Part shown: positions 1-27,196 of the stretch, piece after piece
Layout of the letters: every line of letters starts with the position of its first letter
Numbering within the stretch: the first letter of the stretch is position 1
The notes under the pieces: generated by a model
Told to the model about the DNA's origin: nothing
What the model saw: the letters and a program-made list of their open reading frames with translations, nothing else
The model's database searches: none
Translations under genes and position numbers: made by a program
Source: Clostridium sp.
GTDB taxonomy: Bacteria > Bacillota_I > Bacilli_A > RF39 > UBA660
Assembly (NCBI GenBank): GCA_022010095.1
Contig: CP091739.1
Coordinates: 682,001-746,000, forward strand
Length of the DNA: 64,000 bases
Reading direction: 5' to 3'

Positions 1-609
1 CATTTTCTAATTCTTTTTTTCGCTCTTATAAACATTTGTATCTCTTGATAATGTAGTTCCCTCTGTTATAAGTAAATCAACATTTCCAATAGATTTTTAA
101 ATTCTCTATTGTTTCATTTCCTTTTCTTCCATGAAATCTATAATCTCCTGTATGTAGTATTTTTTTACCTTCACTCTCAATTAAATACATACAAGAATTA
201 TAAGCAGAATGATCAACTCTATATGGTGTTATACTAATATCACCTATTATAATTTTTATTTGATTTATTTTTTTAATTTAAAAAGTATTAACTTTTTCTA
301 TTTATTTTTTTCATTCCACAAAAAAATCACAAGTTATAGCATAAATCTTAAACGTATCTTCATCTATATATATTGGAATATCTTTTATTTATTTTTATCA
401 ATTAAGCCTATATGATCACTATGACTATGTGTTATAAAAACTGCATCATATTTAGACTTACCATAAGTTAATCCATCTATTTGAGTTAACTCCTTGGTCT
501 CATCTAAATCACTTCCAAAATCAATTAAAAATTTTTTTGATTCTTTACTTATAATTTCTGTTACACATCCACCTATTTGATTAGTTCCTTTAATTATTCT
601 TACTTTCAA
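1..609 (-). CDS. MBL-fold exonuclease-like hydrolase (5' part, runs off window)
   Basis: Metallo-beta-lactamase-fold hydrolase of the RNA-processing exonuclease type. The N-terminal half shows the metal motif THSHSDHIGL around residue 60; after a frameshift near 395 the reading continues to HTGDYRFHGRKG, the second metal-binding block, before the window edge. The start is a TTG at 609 with a strong AGGAGGT seven bases upstream; no nearer ATG fits. The stop codon of the upstream PolC-like gene lies inside this Shine-Dalgarno sequence, so the gene is in the same transcription unit as the 0.6-6.3 kb cassette. At least three frameshifts lie in T-rich stretches. Substrate unknown; nuclease action is family inference. 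Confidence 0.75.
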
Positions 610-611
610 AA

Positions 612-2356
612 TTACCTCCTAATTTTTATTATATCACCAATTACTCCACAATTCTTTTTTTCTTTAATAATTAAATCTAATATTATTTGTAATTTATCTT
701 CACCTAATACTCTATAGTTTTTCCTTTTAATTTTTTTCTATATTTCCCATACATATTAATTTTTATATTTAAACTAGGATGTTCTTTTTTTAAAAAAATT
801 CTAATGCTCTATTCATTTTTATCAATCATATATTTATAATCTTTTTAATTTGTTATCACTATAAATTGTATATTCACAAGTATATTTTTATTGTATCATT
901 AGGAATATTAAAAAAATATTTGTTATATAGTTAGCTCCATTATTTTTTTAAATATAAATACTCTTCATCTGTATAACTTAAGTTACCTTTTTAATTCTTT
1001 CTTATGAATATAATAACTAATTAGTTTATTATTTCCTTTATCATAAACATAATAACCATCATCTAATAAATATAAACTATAATTAAGTCCTCTAAATACT
1101 CAATAGTTTTTTTATTACTTTCTTTTAAATCATAATAATGAAAAAAACACAATTATACATTTTTTTAGTTCATACATATCAGTTAATAATTGCACCAATA
1201 TATTTGAAATATCATAACCAATTACAAAAGTTTTTATTTATAAAATTTATTAATTCACTAATAGTTTCTCTTTTATATTTATACTTTAGAGTTGATACCA
1301 TATCACTATTTATCTTTATACATTCTATACATTTATTTCTTTTTATATTTTTTTAAATTCATAAACACATATTCTCTCACCACTAGTTATCTCCTTCATA
1401 AGACTTTATTACTTTTACCGTATTCTTTTAGGATAATAAAATTTATAAAATGATAACCAATAAATAATAATCGCTCTAGTGATACATATACTTCTTGGCC
1501 ATAAATAAGATATTTTTTCTAGTACATTTATATATTCAAACTCAATATTATATTTTTAATAAATACTCTTTATATTTATCCCATGTCTTTCTATAACTAC
1601 TTACACAACACTTATAAATAAATTTTTGTAATAAGAAAAAGTATCTTCTTTTTTTATATGATGTTTTTTTATGATCTCTAGTATAAGGAAACGCGTTAAG
1701 ATTATAACTTAAAAAAATCAGTATCACCTATATTAAAAATCAGATTGTATCAAAGAATAAATATTTGCAAGTTTATCAATTGAGTCTATATCATATATAT
1801 TAAATAAATTCTTTTTTTGAATCTCTTCTATATAACAATACTTCACTCAAATCTAAATTCTTATATACATTAATATCACCTAAATTTATTTTTACCTCTT
1901 TCTATCTTTTGTTTCTCTTTCTAATAGTTCAAGTTTATAAGCATAACTATTTATTTCTAAAGAAATTCCATATCTTTTTTTAACTCATTAATATTAAATT
2001 CATCAGATATTTCTATACTTTTTCACAAAAATCACTTTCAAATAATCATAAATAATCTGAAAATAATCTTTTGAAACTCCACAATAAAATGTCATATCTT
2101 CTCTTAAATCATTTAATAAATTATATTTAATTGGATTCACAAAAGTCATACCAAGTAAATAATCAATATATGAAGAACCACTTATTCTATCTATTATAAT
2201 TCTATTGTCTTTTTTTAGCTTTCTCTACAATTTTATAAACTAGTAAATAATTATTCTCTAGCTTTTTTTCATATATAATTTTTTTATCTCTGAGTTATAT
2301 TTTTCTAAAACATATTCAGGAATTTTAACATCATATAATTCATTTAATTTATTCAT
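612..2356 (-). CDS. second PolC-like protein (palm-to-C-terminal region only), frameshifted
   Basis: Heavily frameshifted reading of about 580 residues. Pieces line up by eye with the C-terminal half of Gram-positive DNA polymerase III PolC: RISGSSYIDYLLGMTFVNP (near 2110-2210) against the PolC GSRGSVGSS...ITEVNP block, LDLSEVLLYRRDS against the LSEVIGCRDD block, and EKISYLWPRS followed by YKFYYP (near 1480-1560) against KIKYMFPKAHA...YFKVHHP. The catalytic PDIDLNF block is not recognisable (nearest is EISDEFNINE) and there is no PHP or exonuclease domain. ATG at 2356 lies 10 bp after the stop of the preceding PolC-like gene; the RBS is weak. It ends inside the RBS of the MBL gene. Not the essential replicase, which would keep its motifs. 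Similarity is visual, not a search result. Confidence 0.5.
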
Positions 2357-2366
2357 AGTTATTTTT

Positions 2367-5210
2367 TTAAATTACCAAGTCTTTTTCATTTACTAGTACC
2401 CTCTACTATAATTCTTTTTGTAAACGATACTATATTTAATATTTCTTTCATACATTTCTAATAATATTTCTAATAATTTATATTCTTCAATTTCACTTAC
2501 ACATAAATTATCTTTATTACTATTTTTCTAATTCATAATATCTATTTTTTTAATATCCATTATTTCATAACAATAAACTTTTTTTCATTCAACACATTAT
2601 AATTAATATTCTTTAATATCTCAAAATAGTATTCAACAGGATAATATAATTTATAATATATAAGAATATATGATATTTTTAAATTTTATTTAATATGAAT
2701 GCTCTTGATAATAAAGTTTTTTTCCACTTTCTCTTAAAGAATTAATAACATTAAATATATCTACCTCTTCTAAAAAAATCTACTTTTTTTAAATCAATAT
2801 ACAAATCATCTTCTAATATATTATTACCTACTAAAACTTTAACTAAATCATTAATCCATATATTATGTATATTAACAAGTTTATTTTTCTAATTTTTGCA
2901 TCATCAAAATGCCTTATATTTAAAGTACCAGTATTTCTATTTAATATGGTAAATCTGCAACCAAACTCTTCTGTATTTCTAAATAAATTAAATACTTTTT
3001 TTCATCATTACACTCACTAACAACATAATTGGTTTTGTTAATTAAATTATTTATCTTTTTCTATATCATCATTTAATCTAAAAACTTATATTAACAAAAT
3101 TATTTTTTTAAATCTTTATAATCATAATATGTATTTTTTTATAAAAAGTATTATCTTTTATATACGGAATAAAAATTCATATCTCTAGGTATTAAATAAA
3201 ATGAACTAAATGTAGTCTTAGTAAATAATGGAATATCTTTAAGTACACTACATATATAATCTTTATCTTTAGAATCAAAAATATACTTTTTCATAATCTC
3301 ATAATGCTTAATTATTCTTGGTATATTAGAATCATTCAATTTAAAAATAATAGTTACATCTTACCAATTCATCCTTATAATTATCCATAATAAACTTAAA
3401 TAACTTTTTTTATAATAGAATTTTTTTCTGATACTATAAATTCTATTTTTAGGTATTTCACTAAAGAATAATTCATAAGGTAATCTATATGGCTCAGTCT
3501 CAATAATATTCAACACATATGCCACTAAAGAATTATTTATAAAACCATCTAATTGATAATATTGTTTTTTTCACTCTTTATATATTTACTAACACTTATC
3601 AAGAACTTATAAACATATGTATAATTTAATTCTTTTTATTAACTTTAATTCTTCATTTAACCTTTTTTTAAAATTTTTTAAACTAGGATTTTTTTATATT
3701 TAATATTAAAAACTATCTCTCACTAACATTTCAAATTCATTAAAATCATCTATATTAGTTATATAAAATTTATCATCATTAATTATTATTCTATCCAAAT
3801 TGTCAAAGATCATATTAGAGTTTTTTTGATTACTATATCTTCATCATCAAACTCTTTTTAATAAACTTTTTAGTATCTTTGTATATTCTACACTCAGAAT
3901 TATTATCTATCTTTTTGATGAAAAATATAATACCTTCTTTTGCCAGTATTTCATCATTAGATAACGCATTAGGCATATTTGAATATATAAGTTTTTTTCT
4001 TTATAATTTTTTTAAGTTTAGAAACATGCTTTTTTTATAATTAATTTCTATATAATCAAAAAAATAGATAAATCTAATTCTAAACTTTTTATCATTTGCT
4101 ATAATACCTACTAACAAATCATCTCTATATTTTTAATACTTCTTCAATAGATATTCTTTTTATTATATTCGTTTATATACTTAGTCATTATTTCATATAA
4201 ATTGTTTAATCCATTTTTGATTTTTTTAACAACTATTACTATATTAGATTCTATATTTTCAATTATTGAAGTTATTTCCACACCGTAACATATTTTAATA
4301 TCTTCAAAACTATTATCTTCTTCACATAATTTCTTATAAATATTTTCTATTTTTAGGAAAAACTAATTATAGAATCTTTTATCAACAAAAAAATAACACC
4401 TCTTTCATTATTTTTCCTTTTATATTCCATAATAATGCCTCAATATCTATAGTTGAATCTTTATCTAAACTATATTTTTGTCTTAATATGTAACTCTACT
4501 TTATTCATACTTTTTTTCATCACTTCCATTAAAAAGAATAACATAGTTAATATTCATCTTTCCTAAACGACAAAAATAGAGATTGTTTTTCTCTATTTAT
4601 AGACATATTCAAACTATTTAACTACCAAATAAAGTACCATTCATTTAAAGTGTAATCATATCCAATATTATGATAAATGTCATTAAGTTCATTCATATAT
4701 CTTTGAACCTTCTTTTTTTATTTATATTTAATTCATTACATATTTTATCAGTCTTAATATTTTTTTGTAATCTTTAAGATAACTATAAAATTTATTTAAT
4801 TTATTAAGTTTATTACCACTTAATAATTGTTTAAACTCAACTTTTTTTATTATCTTTATATTTATCCCATTCTTCACTAAATTGAAAAAGAATAATCATT
4901 AAAAAAATATCTCTATTTACTTTTTTTCAAATCTATTCCATTTATTATATTTCCATTTATAGCTTTTTATTATATATTAATATTCTTTCAAACTTATTAA
5001 ATGACTTTCTATACCTCTTATCAAGTAAAACCGAATCATTATTATTACTATTATCGATTATTAACATATAACCCTGATATAAAAATAGCTTCGCTAATAC
5101 TATTGCAAAAAAATGAACTTCACCACTTTCTATAATAGGATAACTTATACTATTTCTTTCTTCTTCATTAAATCCAACTATAACAACATTCTTTTTTTAA
5201 ATTTATTCAT
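2367..5210 (-). CDS. divergent PolC-like DNA polymerase III protein with degenerate PHP domain
   Basis: About 950 residues after frame repair. In order I read: an unrecognised N-terminal domain (KNVVIVGFNEEER), an OB-like stretch, a PHP-like block VELHIKTKYSLDKDSTIDIE...RGVIFFVDKR, YGVEITS, NIVIVVKKIKNGLNNLYEIM, RDDLLVG, FFDYIEI, NSNMIFDNLDRIIIND, a palm entry with RLNEELKLI and NNSLVAYVLN, KTTFSSFYLIPRDMNFYSVY, then KISYILIYYKLYYPVEYY and KLLEILLEMYERN. Each has a counterpart at the same order in PolC. The exonuclease domain normally inserted in the PHP domain is absent, the PHP HLHTK has become HIKTK and TDHG has become VDKR, and the RGSxGSS palm motif is lost. ATG at 5210 follows AGAGGA. 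Probably a non-catalytic or altered paralogue; frame breaks are numerous. Confidence 0.6.
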
Positions 5211-5219
5211 GCGTTTCCT

Positions 5220-6289
5220 CTAAAAAAATTTATTTAATGGCATTCCTTTTTTTCTAATAATATTTTTAGTATTACAAGAACCAACTATAATAGTATTTTT
5301 TTCCATTCTTTATAATTTTTTTATATTTACTTTTTTTCTTTTTAAATTTAGATAATAATCTTCTTCTTAAATCTTCTTCAGTTTCATTATCAAAGCCACA
5401 AACTATAATAATATCAGGTGACTCACTAAAATCTATATTATCAAGAATATTTCTTACATTCTTAATATCTAATAATTTATGTTCCACTTTAAATTCAAGA
5501 TTAAACTTAACGTATTTTTATAAAACGTTCTTTTTTTCTTTTTAAATTAGAATTATATAATTTACTAAAGTTTAAAGTATCGATTATATGATCTCCTATA
5601 TTTGATGAATCGCCATTCACAGAAGTATTAACATTTTTCCTTTTAATTCAATAAACACCACTCTATATTTATCATTACATTTCTTTAATGCAACTAAATC
5701 AGCTTTAATAGTTTTTCCAGCATTATCTTTATCAGGTTGAGCATCAAAACTATGTTTATATTCAGTATCAAAAAAACTATATAATCATTTCTATCATTAT
5801 CATATGCATATGTAAATTCTTGTTTAAATGTTTCTTCTTTTCTAGAATCTTTATAACTTTCAAAAAAACTTTGCACAACTCATCTAATAAACTTTTTAAA
5901 ATCATACTTTTTTTATTTCATTATCATATATTTTAGCGCTTAATATATTATTCTTTTTGTTATCTATTTTTCCACTCGTTATACTTAGAAGTATCAAAAT
6001 TATATTTACTTATAAATTCTATTAATTTATCCAACTCCTCTTCACTATATAAAAAAAGCAGTATTAAGATTAAAACTCATAACGTAATTATTAACATTCC
6101 TTTTTTATATTTATACCTCTACCATAAGAATATAATGTTATCTTATTATCACGAATAGTTAAATTATATTTTTTTCTTTATTGTTTTCTAAGTATTTAAA
6201 TAAATTATCTAAATCTCCATTATTAATAGAATTTATGAATCTTTTTATCACTTATAAATCTTCCTTTTTAACACAATTTCTTCGTTCAT
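5220..6289 (-). CDS. PD-(D/E)XK nuclease-like protein, first gene of the cassette
   Basis: About 340 residues after repairing several frameshifts. The middle carries KADLVALKKCNDKYRVVFI followed by ELKG, which fits motifs II and III (D...ExK) of the PD-(D/E)XK nuclease fold, preceded by a candidate upstream acidic region (FDTEYKHSFDAQPDKD). A lysine-rich C-terminal part contains DIIIVCGFDNETEEDLRRR. The start at 6289 is supported by AAGGAGG spaced 7 bases. The next gene begins 10 bp after its stop, so it is operonic with the two PolC-like genes. I do not recognise the family; a DNase role in a defence or repair module is inference. Confidence 0.5.
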
Positions 6290-6317
6290 TTTATTCCTCC
6301 TTAAATAGATTATAGCA

Positions 6318-6352
6318 TAAAAAAAATACTTAGATTATTATTCTAAGTATTC
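6318..6352 (-). terminator. intrinsic terminator after the dacF-like gene
   Basis: Ten-base inverted repeat AATACTTAGA/TCTAAGTATT around a seven-base loop, followed on the minus strand by eight Ts. One of the few eight-base runs in the window. Confidence 0.85.
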
Positions 6353-6357
6353 TTTAC

Positions 6358-7554
6358 TAAATTCTTTTTAAGTTATTTTTTTCTTATAATACCAGTAATT
6401 ATATCTTTTTAAATTACTAAAAAAATATCTTTAAAAAAATGTTGCTTTCTTTACTTCATCGTGAATTACTAAATCATAAGTATAAGTATTATTATCATAT
6501 TTTTAATATTAGCTTTCCTACTTTACTTCCTTTTTTTCTATAGGTGCTTTTTGCATCATTAAGTTTTTACTTCAGTAGTATATTTTTATATCTTTTTCTA
6601 TCTTTATCAACAATAATTTTTTTATATCATTCTCTAAATAATATTTATAATTTCTATTTTTCACTACCTTTTTATATTTATTACTCCAGAATAATCTTTC
6701 TTATTCAATATAGTTTCACTACCATACATACTATATCCATATTCCATCATACCTATTGTATCACTACTTCTATTATCTTTTTGTATTACTTTTTTCATAA
6801 CTACACTAATAAGTCTCATATTATTTTTTTATTCATAGTTGCAGTTAAACAATAACCTGCTTTATCAGTATAACCAGTTTTAAGTCCATCTATTCCTTTA
6901 TAAAAATTTAATTAATTTATTAGTATTCACAAGCCAATGATTCTCTCCTGAAACATTAATATATTCATCAAATGTACTTGATATTTTTAATCGCAAGTTC
7001 ATGTTTAACGAGTTCTCGTGCCATAAGTGCCATATCATATGCAGTTGTTAAATGACCATCTTCATCAAGCCCATGAGGATTTTTAAATGTAGTATTTTTG
7101 CATCCAAGTTCTCTTGCTCTATCATTCATCATATTAACAAAATTTTCAACTGTACCACCCATACTTTTCAGCAAGTGCAACCGCCGCATCATTCGCAGAA
7201 GCAATACCTATTCCTTTTTAATAAATCATGTACTTTTTACATTACTTCCTGCTTCAACATATATTTGAGTTCCACCCATACTTTGTGCTCTTTTAGAAAT
7301 AAGAACATCATCATCAAGATTAAGTTTTCCACTTTCAATTGCTTCCATCGCAAGTAACATAGTCATTATCTTAGTCATAGAAGCAGGAGCCATTTTCTTA
7401 TCCTTATCTTTTTCTCAAATAATATTTTTACCTGTACTTGCTTCAATTAATATAGCACTCTCACTATTTTTTTAGCAAGTCCAATATCAACCGCACCAAC
7501 ATTACTCATCAAAAAAATAAACATAAAACAAAAATATAAAAAGATTTTTTTCAT
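6358..7554 (-). CDS. dacF: D-alanyl-D-alanine carboxypeptidase (S11, DacF/PBP5 type)
   Basis: Penicillin-binding serine carboxypeptidase that trims the terminal D-Ala of peptidoglycan pentapeptides outside the membrane. All three active-site motifs are seen in order: SMTK (SxxK) about residue 55, SAND (SxN type) about residue 115, and KTG about residue 220. An N-terminal hydrophobic signal peptide (start MKKIFLYFCF) is present. ATG 7554 has GGTGA eight bases upstream. Several frameshifts in A/T runs split the reading; the C-terminal family domain is only partly readable and the exact stop is approximate, just before the terminator. Confidence 0.85.
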
Positions 7555-20981: not shown

Positions 20982-21834
20982 ACGTTGTAAGTGAACTTTG
21001 ACTAAAAATATCCATTAATGATTCTTCTAAAAAGTATCTGGTTTAGCTAAATCAGTATATTACTATACTTTAACTAAAGAAGATAAAGATGTAAAAAAAA
21101 TAAGGAAATCATAGATAAAATAAGAGAAATATTTATTAATAATAAAGAAAGATATGGCTATCGTAGAATTACATTAGAATTAAGAAATCAAGGCTATTAT
21201 GTTAATCATAAGAAAGTTTACAGAATAATGTTAAAGTTTGGATTAAAACCACTAAAAAAAGAAATAAAAAGAAAGTATTCTTCATATAAAGGAACTGTTG
21301 GTAAAATTGCTGATAATTTAATCGAAAGAAATTTTGCGCGGATAATCCAAATGAAAAAAATGGTATACAGATGTTACAGAATTTAATCTTCGTGGTAAAA
21401 AATGTTATCTTTCACCAATATTGGATGGATTCAATGGTGAGGTAATATCTTATAACATATCTAAATCACCAAATCTAGAGCAGATAAATGATATGCTTAA
21501 TAAAGCATTTGATGGTAAAAATCTAGAGGGCTTAATATTTCATTCAGATCAGGGATGGCAATATCAACACCAATCTTATCAGCAAAGACTAAAAAATAAA
21601 GGTATAAAACAAAGCATGTCCAGAAAAGGAAATAGTATGGATAATGGAATGATGGAAAACTTTTTTGGACTACTTAAAACTGAAATGTTTTACGATCAAG
21701 AAGATAAATATAAAACACTAGATGAATTAATTTTAGCGATTGATGACTATATTAAGTATTATAATTATGATAGAATTAAAGTGAAATTAAAAGGACTGTC
21801 ACCTGTAAATTACAGGTTACAATCCTCTAATTAG
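20950..21834 (+). CDS. IS150-type transposase OrfB (DDE integrase)
   Basis: IS3-family DDE transposase. RYGYRRITLELRNQGYYVNH (HTH_21), WYTDVTEFNL (first D), HSDQGWQYQHQSYQ (second D) and GNSMDNGMMENFFGLLKTEM (E) are all present, and it ends LSPVNYRLQSSN. The 5' third has three frame breaks; from 21421 the reading is open. The catalytic triad is intact, so the element could be active if the breaks are errors. Confidence 0.88.
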
Positions 21835-24657: not shown

Positions 24658-27196
24658 TTAGCCTATTCTAAAGGCTGGTGAGACACCAATTGAACCTGCC
24701 AAACCGTTATCACCATTATGATTTCCACTACTAGTTACATAATGAAAAAGCAAAAATTAGAATCAGAAGAAGAAGAACGAAGTCCCCAATAATTCTTAAT
24801 AGTATCAGATTTTTTTATAGCTGCACTATAATTATCTGTTGAAGTCCCTTGTGCTTTATAATAGTCTAGTTGTCTTGTCATATTTCTCGCAGAATCAGAA
24901 GTAATTTTATTCGATGTTCCTTGTGCCCATATTTCTGCTGTACTAAGTAAATATAATTTATCTATCGATGTAAAATTTGCTGTATCTTCACTTCCATGTC
25001 CAGACACTACCGTTGTATTTATTATTCCGCTTTTTAAATCTTCTGGTAATGAATTATATATATCATTATTTATAAATGTTCTCATGCTTGTTGCTGGCCA
25101 TCCTCCTACATTTGTACCCTTTAGCCCACCTTTATTATTCATTTTTAATTTTCAGTTATAGTATCTGCAAATTCAAGCACAAAACCACATGCACTTTGTG
25201 AGAAACCAGAAGTAGAACACTCGCTTGGTGTTGTTGTGTTTGCTACTCTTAAAGTATGTGTTCCATATGTTCCCATGTCTATAGTTTTAGTTTCACCTAC
25301 TTTATATCCACGAGAATTTCCTGCTTTAACTGAAGCTGCTATTGTTTCCCATGAATCAGTTGGAAATGTTGATGGTTTATCAGCAATATCAGTAAAGTAT
25401 CCTGGATTACTTGTTCCACCATCTATTCTAGCATACGTCTTATCTACTTTAGTTGAATTATATACTGTACCAGAGCCACCTACTAGAGAAGTACAATTTT
25501 TAAACATATTAGTACTGTCAGTAACAGCAGCAGTATTAAATTTATCACTTGCATATATTGTCTTTAGATTAGTATTTGCATAAAATATCTTATTCATATT
25601 AGTAACATTGTTCGTATCAAAACTGCCTAAATCTAAAACTGTAGCTTTACTATAAGAGAACATTAGACTCATATTCGTTACTTTCGATGTATCAAAGTTA
25701 CTTAAATCTAATGTTGTAGCTTGACTACCAGAAAACATTTCACTCATATCAGTAACCTTTGAAGTATCAAAGTTACTTAAATCTAATGTTGTAGCTTTAC
25801 TACTAGAAAACATAGATCTCATATAAATTACTTTACTTGTATCAAAAACTACTTAAATCCAATGTAGTAGCTTGACTACCAGCAAACATAGAACTCATAT
25901 AAGTAACTTTACTTGTATTAAAACTACTTAAATCAAGTGTAGTCATTAATGTATTTGCAAACATGATTTCCATATCTACTACATTACTTGTATCAAAATT
26001 ATTCAAACCCTTTATTTCCTCTATCAAACTTTGAAGAAACATAGAGCTCATGTCAGTTACATTACTTGTATCAAAATTACTTAAATCTAAGGTTTTGACT
26101 TGACTTTCAAAAAACATACCACCCATATTTGTTACTTTTGATGTATCAAAACTACTTAAATCCAATGTAGTAGCTTGACTTTCAGAAAACATGCCACGCA
26201 TACTAATAACCTTACTAGTGTTAAAATTACTTAAATCTAAGGTTGTAGCTTGAATTCCTTGAAACATATAACCCATATCTGTTACCTTGCTTGTGTTAAA
26301 ATTACTTAAATCTATTGTTGTTGCTTGACTATAAGAAAACATAGCGTTCATATTTATTACATTGTTTGTATTAAAATCACTTAAATCTATTGATGTGGCT
26401 TGACTATATTGAAACATATATGACATTGAAGTTATTGGTTTATTATTTATGTAAGTGCACACTTTACTTGTTACTGCGTCTGTACTTGTTTTATCAGTTA
26501 ATTGAATGCCCCAGCTATTATTGTTTATATTGCTCCAATCTAAACCTGAACTTGCATAATATCCTTCTTGTTTATAAGCGTAAGTATATTGCCCATTTAC
26601 ATATTGTAACCCTTGTGTTAAAGTATCATTTGTCTTACAAAAATATGTACTTGCTTTTGTATTAATTGAAGCAATCTCACTATAATTAGATGGTATTGCT
26701 ATATCACTTAATGTATTTGTTATGTAACCACCTTTTACACTTAAACCAAGTGTTTGTGATGAAGTACTATTATTTGTTATTTGAAGTTTTATTGTTTTTT
26801 TGAATTACTTGATGTAACTGAATCATTTGGTATATCATATGATTTTTGTTGTATTATTAGAATTATCTAAATCATATGCTGAACTAAAAATATTCAACTA
26901 TCAAATTTGAATTCTTTAAGTAAAGCAATTTATAATAAGTATCTACTGGATTTAAATTATTTATTTTAACATCAATTATAGTTTCACCTGTTGGTACTGA
27001 TAATGTATTAGTACTACTTTCATCTATTTCTATTGAATATTTTTAATGCTCCTATATACATTTCAGCTGCTTTATGATTATTTGAAGTAACAATAAAGTT
27101 TGAATAAGTTAATCCTAATGTAACACTGAAACCTACTATTATTAAAAGTACCATTAAATATTTATGTTCTTTTAAAAACTCTAAAACTCTTTTCAT
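24658..27196 (-). CDS. BspA-like surface protein with DUF285 repeats and DUF6273-like tail
   Basis: Large exported protein, about 845 residues. An N-terminal hydrophobic segment (YLMVLLIIVGFSVTLGL) followed by a beta-sandwich-like region resembles TasA/CalY-type exported proteins. The centre has about eleven 25-residue repeats of the pattern LDLSNFDTSKVTDMSxMF (DUF285, BspA-type leucine-rich). The C-terminal domain has YLLSTAEIWAQ, MTRQLDYYKAQ, YWGLRSSSSDS and ends GVSPAFRIG, like DUF6273. Such repeats mediate adhesion in gut bacteria (family knowledge). ATG 27196 with GGGGAG upstream. Frame breaks near 25845, 26790, 26880 and 24740. Confidence 0.88.
25590..26445 (-). repeat. tandem 75-bp coding repeats (DUF285)
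   Basis: About eleven copies of a 75-bp unit encoding x-T-x-[LI]-D-L-S-x-F-[DN]-T-[SN]-[KN]-V-x-x-M-x-x-M-F. Most diverged copy is GLNNFDTSNVVDMEIMF. These are the surface-protein repeats, not a CRISPR array. Confidence 0.9.

Follow-up and report, generated by a model that had tools for sequence, protein, structure and literature searches.

Relation to described systems

C-family DNA polymerases are known as replicases or mutagenic repair enzymes. Passages of two polymerase surveys (among PMC12926913, PMC3919608 and PMC12592400) do not mention a cassette of the kind described here. The locus in question lies at one end of a stretch of 64,000 nucleotides from a Clostridium sp. contig (hereafter the window, positions 1-64000) and contains two adjacent genes, A and B, related to the replicative polymerase PolC, together with genes named H, C and MBL. 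The A protein shares the PolC fold but lacks the OB and Exo domains, the C-terminal end and the HxH motif of the PHP domain, and in the window's clade also the catalytic aspartates; the cassette proteins lie outside the clade of host PolCs and below the cut-offs of the PolC families. The MBL protein shares the HxHxDH, HTGD, TEGT and TSGH motifs with RNase J and other beta-CASP proteins, differing from them in its length of about 400 amino acids, in scores below the family cut-offs and in its fusion to a second nuclease, N1, at three loci. The D proteins of sister cassettes match the start of the RecA domain of DnaB but have no Walker A motif and are mostly about 200 amino acids long, and the C proteins may resemble DnaQ in fold but lack the DEDD residues in the 28 rows of their alignment, as judged by eye. 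The locus is also like multi-gene anti-phage systems with nuclease effectors, of the types covered by PADLOC, in forming a mobile operon, in its nucleases and in some defence neighbours, a likeness that would be in working only. A literature search by title and start of abstract, which left preprints and most subscription papers uncovered, found no published system with pseudoenzymes derived from PolC, DnaQ and DnaB.

Comparison of sequences, together with a structure model, establishes a mobile, conserved multi-gene unit of uncultured Bacilli that combines proteins derived from PolC and DnaB, and probably from an exonuclease, with intact-looking nucleases. The unit fails as a set of PolC, DnaB and DnaQ enzymes, matches no known defence model and may work like a multi-gene defence system. 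Judged by sequence, A and its relatives are kept pseudo-polymerases and not a misread replicase, because the separate PolC clade of related genomes excludes the cassette rows.

Organization of the cassette in the window

All cassette genes of the window are on the minus strand, where a profile search found, in a row, the four whole genes H, A, B and C and the start of the fifth, MBL. The gene encoding A (2386..4508) specifies a PolC-like putative pseudo-polymerase of 684 amino acids with PHP, palm, thumb and fingers, and its stop codon is overlapped by the ATG of B (1383..2389), which encodes a PolC-like protein of 333 amino acids without the catalytic palm segment. Gene H (4622..5210) encodes about 190 amino acids with a C-terminal helix-turn-helix (HTH)-like part, gene C (634..1380) about 240 amino acids with a possibly DnaQ/PolC-exonuclease-like N-terminal fold from which the catalytic motifs are absent, and MBL (1..609), truncated by the window edge, a beta-CASP RNase J-like nuclease. 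Gene bounds were set by comparison with relatives, and the window has start and stop codons at these positions.

These assignments were made with profiles of intact homologues run over all 2014 pieces of the window, and the matching pieces fall in the right profile order. For A, 16 collinear pieces cover profile positions 9 to 684 (best 1e-25), and for B eight collinear pieces cover positions 8 to 321 (best 1e-40). Profile A4, for H, matches in order at 4960-5196 (8e-21), 4731-4895 (0.005) and 4625-4717 (4e-13), and profile A5, for MBL, at 388-618 (3e-34), 314-388, 80-277 (1e-26) and 10-96. The profiles were decisive for the claim of the initial annotation that positions 612-5210 hold two adjacent PolC-derived genes, which is borne out on the minus strand and in broken frames. 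Its gene bounds require correction, since what it described as the first gene comprises H and A and what it described as the second comprises B and C. Ten stop-to-stop pieces scanned singly matched PHP (0.035), PF07733 (0.13 and 0.059) and TIGR01405 (0.0058) no better than the chance matches beside them, and the strong, collinear matches came from the intact-homologue profiles. Profiles of K and D, two further components of sister cassettes, had no match within the window, whose cassette is cut at MBL.

Many genes throughout the window 1-64000 are frame-broken. The breaks are most likely a read artefact, a systematic homopolymer artefact of the assembly, because the lengths of A/T runs are skewed against those of relatives, with runs of 7 far above runs of 6: the window has 548 runs of 5, 57 of 6 and 362 of 7, and the loci of seven relatives have 982, 446 and 205. 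Intact open frames exist in homologues of A (75), B (13) and C (75).

The PolC-derived proteins and the separate replicase

Homologues of A were collected with a read-through of the gene bearing X at every frame change. The 75 homologues have 541-722 amino acids, most of them about 687, with identity down to 38%, and the nearest named relatives of the window by A are uncultured Bacilli, a Bacillota bacterium and Candidatus Faecisoma. A structure model of P0001, the homologue nearest the window, compared with PolC (3f2b) has the PHP-palm-thumb-fingers fold over its whole length (TM 0.84), in agreement with the expected resemblance to PolC; residues 1..684 align to PolC 338..1384 with no Exo insert, and A is without OB, Exo and the C-terminal end of PolC. 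Among eight A homologues scanned, seven match PolC models at 91-133 bits, against cut-offs of 873 and 1043; the maximum for TIGR01405 was 119.5 against a cut-off of 1043.45 bits, and P0001 matched no PolC model, only PRK05672 at 32 bits. At least two of the three aspartates that we take to be the catalytic ones of PolC are lost in all eight aligned A homologues, and the HxH motif of PHP is present in none of 25 cassette rows against seven of seven host PolCs.

Regarding B, a read-through of the second gene retrieved 13 homologues, nine of them with 333 amino acids, whose similarity to PolC is confined to the vicinity of 832-914 and 1205-1298 of PRK00448; the catalytic residues are absent in the three aligned rows. 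A closer relationship of B to A than to PolC was considered and rejected (hhalign E 3.8e-10 to PolC against 2.4e-6 to A). The proposal that A and B form a complex gained no support: B has far fewer homologues (13, where A has 75), and a distinct B next to A is missing from all 20 loci that carry a PolC-like gene of the cassette.

A separate PolC, scoring over the curated TIGR01405 cut-off, was found in 16 of the 21 cassette genomes searched, and G003, G189, G054, G150 and G215 gave nothing beyond incomplete or lower-scoring matches; G050, which has no known cassette, also has a PolC over the cut-off. Frames with PDIDLN occur in G001, G002, G004, G005, G006, G008 and, partially, G007; G008 contributes two frames of PolC length that differ in kind, and the corresponding match in G003 was a DnaE. 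A tree built from 587 columns and 48 rows unites one clostridial-looking PolC with the 20 host rows (100/100), and all 26 cassette rows lie outside this clade. With DnaE as root, nine rows with PDID-type proteins adjoin the host PolCs (93/83) and 16 rows including the A clade lie outside, G312 being deepest, in a branching order that is unsure, the tree program having flagged long branches and odd composition. The view that these are extra, non-replicative relatives of PolC is supported by homologues that are open-framed and conserved elsewhere, by the separate full-length PolC of related genomes and by the fold of A.

The proposition that the proteins are non-catalytic holds for the window's clade and not for the family as a whole. 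Among 17 aligned cassette PolCs, ten have lost at least two aspartates, that of L052 has asparagine in place of the first, and six keep all three (L049, L050, L051, L053, L054 and L055).

Distribution and components of the wider cassette

The cassette is sparsely distributed in the order. Of 385 genomes from the order, 23 contain H at 1e-4 when it is searched alone and 21 do so below 1e-20, and four contain A at 1e-40. In a sample of 395 genomes of the class, A at 1e-40 matched one, which is G001 itself, and H at 1e-8 matched four, all from the order sample; the single match of H among 392 genomes of the phylum sample was again G001.

Twenty-five loci were annotated, of which the pairs L001/L002, L006/L007 and L014/L015 are close relatives and so not independent. 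On the same strand, MBL is present in 22 loci, a PolC-like gene in 20, an N1 or N2 nuclease in 19, K, a small protein with a KOW motif in some copies, in 18, a DnaB-like gene (D) in 17 and C in four. All 25 have H, 17 of them having been chosen by H; the eight loci found through A alone also have H in every case. L045, L048 and L060 stop at a contig edge. The cassette polymerase is common, not universal or essential to every version. The similarity of the D proteins to DnaB lies at the beginning of its RecA domain (0.0057), and a Walker A motif is present in none of 23; in L014 the A protein bears an extra DnaB-like C-terminal part in the alignment.

The MBL motifs are well kept in sister cassettes (HxHxDH 22/22, TSGH 22/22, HTGD 20/22 and TEGT 19/22). 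MBL relatives match RNase J, and the PDB profile search matched EF2904 (1.5e-28) and RNase J; the L001 protein scores under the NCBIfam cut-offs (TIGR00649, 51.5 against 400 bits; RnjA, 60.7 against 820 bits). For the second nuclease, D341, E354 and K356 of N1 are invariant in ten sequences of sister cassettes, and a D...E[LI]K pattern occurs in 15 of 19 nuclease frames of these cassettes. A PD-(D/E)xK fold of N1 is unproven, because the search with sister-cassette sequences gave no true PDB match. MBL and N1 profiles match one frame in L046, L049 and L055, with the D...ExK pattern in that of L046 and not in those of L049 or L055.

Regarding H, the L001 protein matches Pfam HTH_11 at 0.0017, below the family cut-off, and among PADLOC models only WYL (0.0082); profiles of the 350 amino acid form of H and of N1 gave chance-like matches only in the PDB. 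C probably derives from a DnaQ-type exonuclease, to judge from a modest fold match and from the homologue in L048, the only one with DIETTG. The assignment of C as a PolC exonuclease by sequence was rejected, hhalign having given nothing.

Two further genes were seen by eye within sister cassettes, one encoding a macrodomain-like protein of 173 amino acids (L058, 5972-6493) and the other an HNH/NUMOD-like protein of 133 amino acids (L048, 9700-10101) near the exonuclease-like C. In L056 (1378-6150, genome G145) a cassette without its own PolC-like gene is directly beside the full-length host polC.

Movement, recombination and selection

L008 and L001 are 99.8% identical over 2264 bp that cover the nuclease, H and the beginning of A; this stretch begins just upstream of the first gene, and L008 stops inside A. 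The cassette therefore moves between species, since the RecG beside the cassette in L008 is only 59% identical to the RecG of G001, and the inference of transfer is independent of the purity of the G008 assembly because this RecG adjoins the cassette in L008 itself. Similarly, L014 and L015 share 7.8 kb at 98.3% identity, ending just past the last nuclease, and about 0.4 kb further on another 0.7 kb with a gene of 192 amino acids (93%); the other flanks are unmatched. In all ten cassettes examined (the window and nine of the 25 loci) the guanine plus cytosine (GC) content is below that of the flanks; within the window, GC is 20% at the cassette end and 25% elsewhere.

For A, three catalytically dead pairs gave ratios of nonsynonymous to synonymous change (dN/dS) of 0.15, 0.16 and 0.20, and the values for three pairs of PDID type are 0.20, 0.19 and 0.20; by this measure the dead A is under purifying selection. 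Ratios for other genes are 0.14 (H), 0.26 (C), 0.20 (MBL), 0.26 (D) and 0.19 (reverse transcriptase). H of L006/L007 has a ratio of 1.03 at a dS of only 0.02, where A has a dS of 0.20, and MBL of L001/L002 has zero synonymous change, where A has a dS of 0.27. Cassette genes thus seem to recombine between copies, because dS of MBL and H in these pairs is far below that of A.

Possible function

That degenerate replisome parts aim or gate nucleases for the purpose of defence is a putative role whose chances we judge to be even. Sequences and model show that parts of the replisome (PolC, DnaB in sister cassettes and probably an exonuclease of the DnaQ type) were copied and that the copies lost OB, Exo, the C-terminal end and the PHP metal site, with catalysis gone in most lines, while purifying selection kept them. 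The dead PolC, A, aided in the window's clade by B and C, might still bind primer-template DNA or a fork partner, detect foreign or abnormal replication and hold or release the nucleases there. These would cut the nucleic acids of the invader, or those of the cell as abortive infection, and H would control expression or carry a signal. In a bolder version, which we judge less likely than not, a dismantled replisome of PolC core, proofreading exonuclease and DnaB, with catalysis lost in much of the family, would serve to sense foreign replication, or as a decoy for it, and would direct the nucleases. If true, no earlier immune system would be based on a DNA polymerase of the C family, and intermediates between active and dead polymerase would still be living; it would also mark a new route from copying machine to detector in which shape was kept and chemistry mostly discarded. 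Sister cassettes range from complete catalytic triads to lost ones, so that this change is open to tracing and to laboratory tests.

The initial annotation had named defence, plasmid or lesion handling as purposes. Defence finds some support in the intact-looking nucleases, in horizontal transfer and in the restriction genes near two copies; no sign was found of plasmid origin or lesion handling. L014 is accompanied by a HEC-05 protein and by HsdR (7.5e-246), which lies 5 kb away and is truncated where the examined sequence ends, L015 by a type II methyltransferase, a restriction enzyme and an Orf5/HEC-06-like protein, and L006 by a retron reverse transcriptase adjoining the cassette and a DnaB-type helicase domain. 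Among ten neighbours of L014 and L015 that were scanned, five are clear, three are without match and two match helicase-type or mad3 models and are possibly housekeeping.

Several observations weigh against this reading. Clear defence neighbours are found at three loci only, the other loci lying among ordinary genes, and the neighbourhood enrichment for defence models is no more than suggestive: at a PADLOC threshold of 1e-10, 183 models among 130 neighbours compare with 44 among 129 controls, in a pooled scan that tallies overlapping models and not loci, housekeeping-like ones included. No PADLOC model fits A, H, C or MBL convincingly (none for eight A homologues, none for C and MBL). Not every version needs the polymerase, because L046, L047 and L056 have other parts and no cassette PolC-like match, and the six of 17 with all three aspartates suggest that catalysis may matter in part of the family. 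Under the DnaE root the cassette rows are not one clade, and A is less constrained than host PolC, for which dN/dS is 0.06 in one pair. No relative was found in viral contigs with two single pieces and alignments A1, A5 and A11, narrow patterns that make this a weak absence, and none in plasmids and phages with one window piece each, likewise narrow queries.

The best surviving alternative, which we consider unlikely, is that an integrative element left a domesticated module for replication or maintenance, in which the proteins would be remnants of the element's replication genes and the nucleases would process its DNA or RNA. Replisome-type parts, horizontal transfer, the six members with intact aspartate triads and the integrases or recombinases seen by eye near L001, L002 and L013 would all suit such a module, but most members combine lost catalysis with purifying selection, none of the 23 DnaB-like proteins has Walker A, and narrow queries gave nothing in plasmids, phages or viral contigs, initiators and relaxases not having been searched for.

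A part in chromosomal repair or fork processing appears quite improbable. The divergent PolC would fill gaps where active or cap forks where dead, and the nucleases would trim ends, for which the triads intact in L049, L050, L051, L053, L054 and L055 and RNase J-like and PD-(D/E)xK nucleases able to process ends would be suitable; such a part is hard to reconcile with the few genomes concerned (21/385), with horizontal transfer, with the loss of PHP HxH in 25 of 25 rows and with the absence of the exonuclease motif from the window's clade.

More doubtful again is a toxin-antitoxin-like or RNA-targeting abortive system in which the RNase J-like MBL is the harmful effector, kept in check by the replisome-derived proteins until these are disturbed by a phage. 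In its favour, most beta-CASP enzymes cut RNA, MBL shows a higher mean column identity (69%) than H (50%) across the same six loci, and the HTH-like part of H, below cut-off, would be fit for autoregulation; against it, toxicity and inhibition are hypothetical, and the parts are more numerous than such systems usually have.

That the locus is a badly read normal polC, the case raised in the initial annotation itself and suggested by the strong homopolymer artefact in the window, has next to no probability, given open-framed homologues of steady length (75 and 13), lost catalytic residues in eight A and three B aligned rows, the separate PolC in 16 of 21 genomes and the host clade at 100/100.

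Neighbouring genes and other features

Upstream of H, an N-like gene (5223..6290, minus strand) possibly encodes a PD-(D/E)xK-type nuclease, judged by position and by eye; its frames are broken and its bounds rough. D...ELK was seen by eye in the piece 5620-5784. Its assignment as N1 or N2 was rejected: the N1, N2 and A12 profiles gave nothing significant on this gene, the best match being 0.28 at 5275-5517.

In L014, a gene encoding 1211 amino acids (3002-6637) lies between HsdR and the cassette and has no PADLOC match at 1e-20. Directly upstream of A, L006 (5363-9865) and L007 (2307-6808) have two genes recognized by eye, one kinase-phosphatase-like (726 amino acids) and the other small and OB-like, together with a helicase domain of DnaB type that has Walker A and a reverse transcriptase of retron type that has no fused effector.

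Elsewhere in the window, a transposase-like integrase-core frame was seen by eye on the plus strand (21421-21834), and long minus-strand frames at 25145-26462 carry BspA-like DLSxFDTSxVTxMSxMF repeats. The organism of the window has a class B RNase P.

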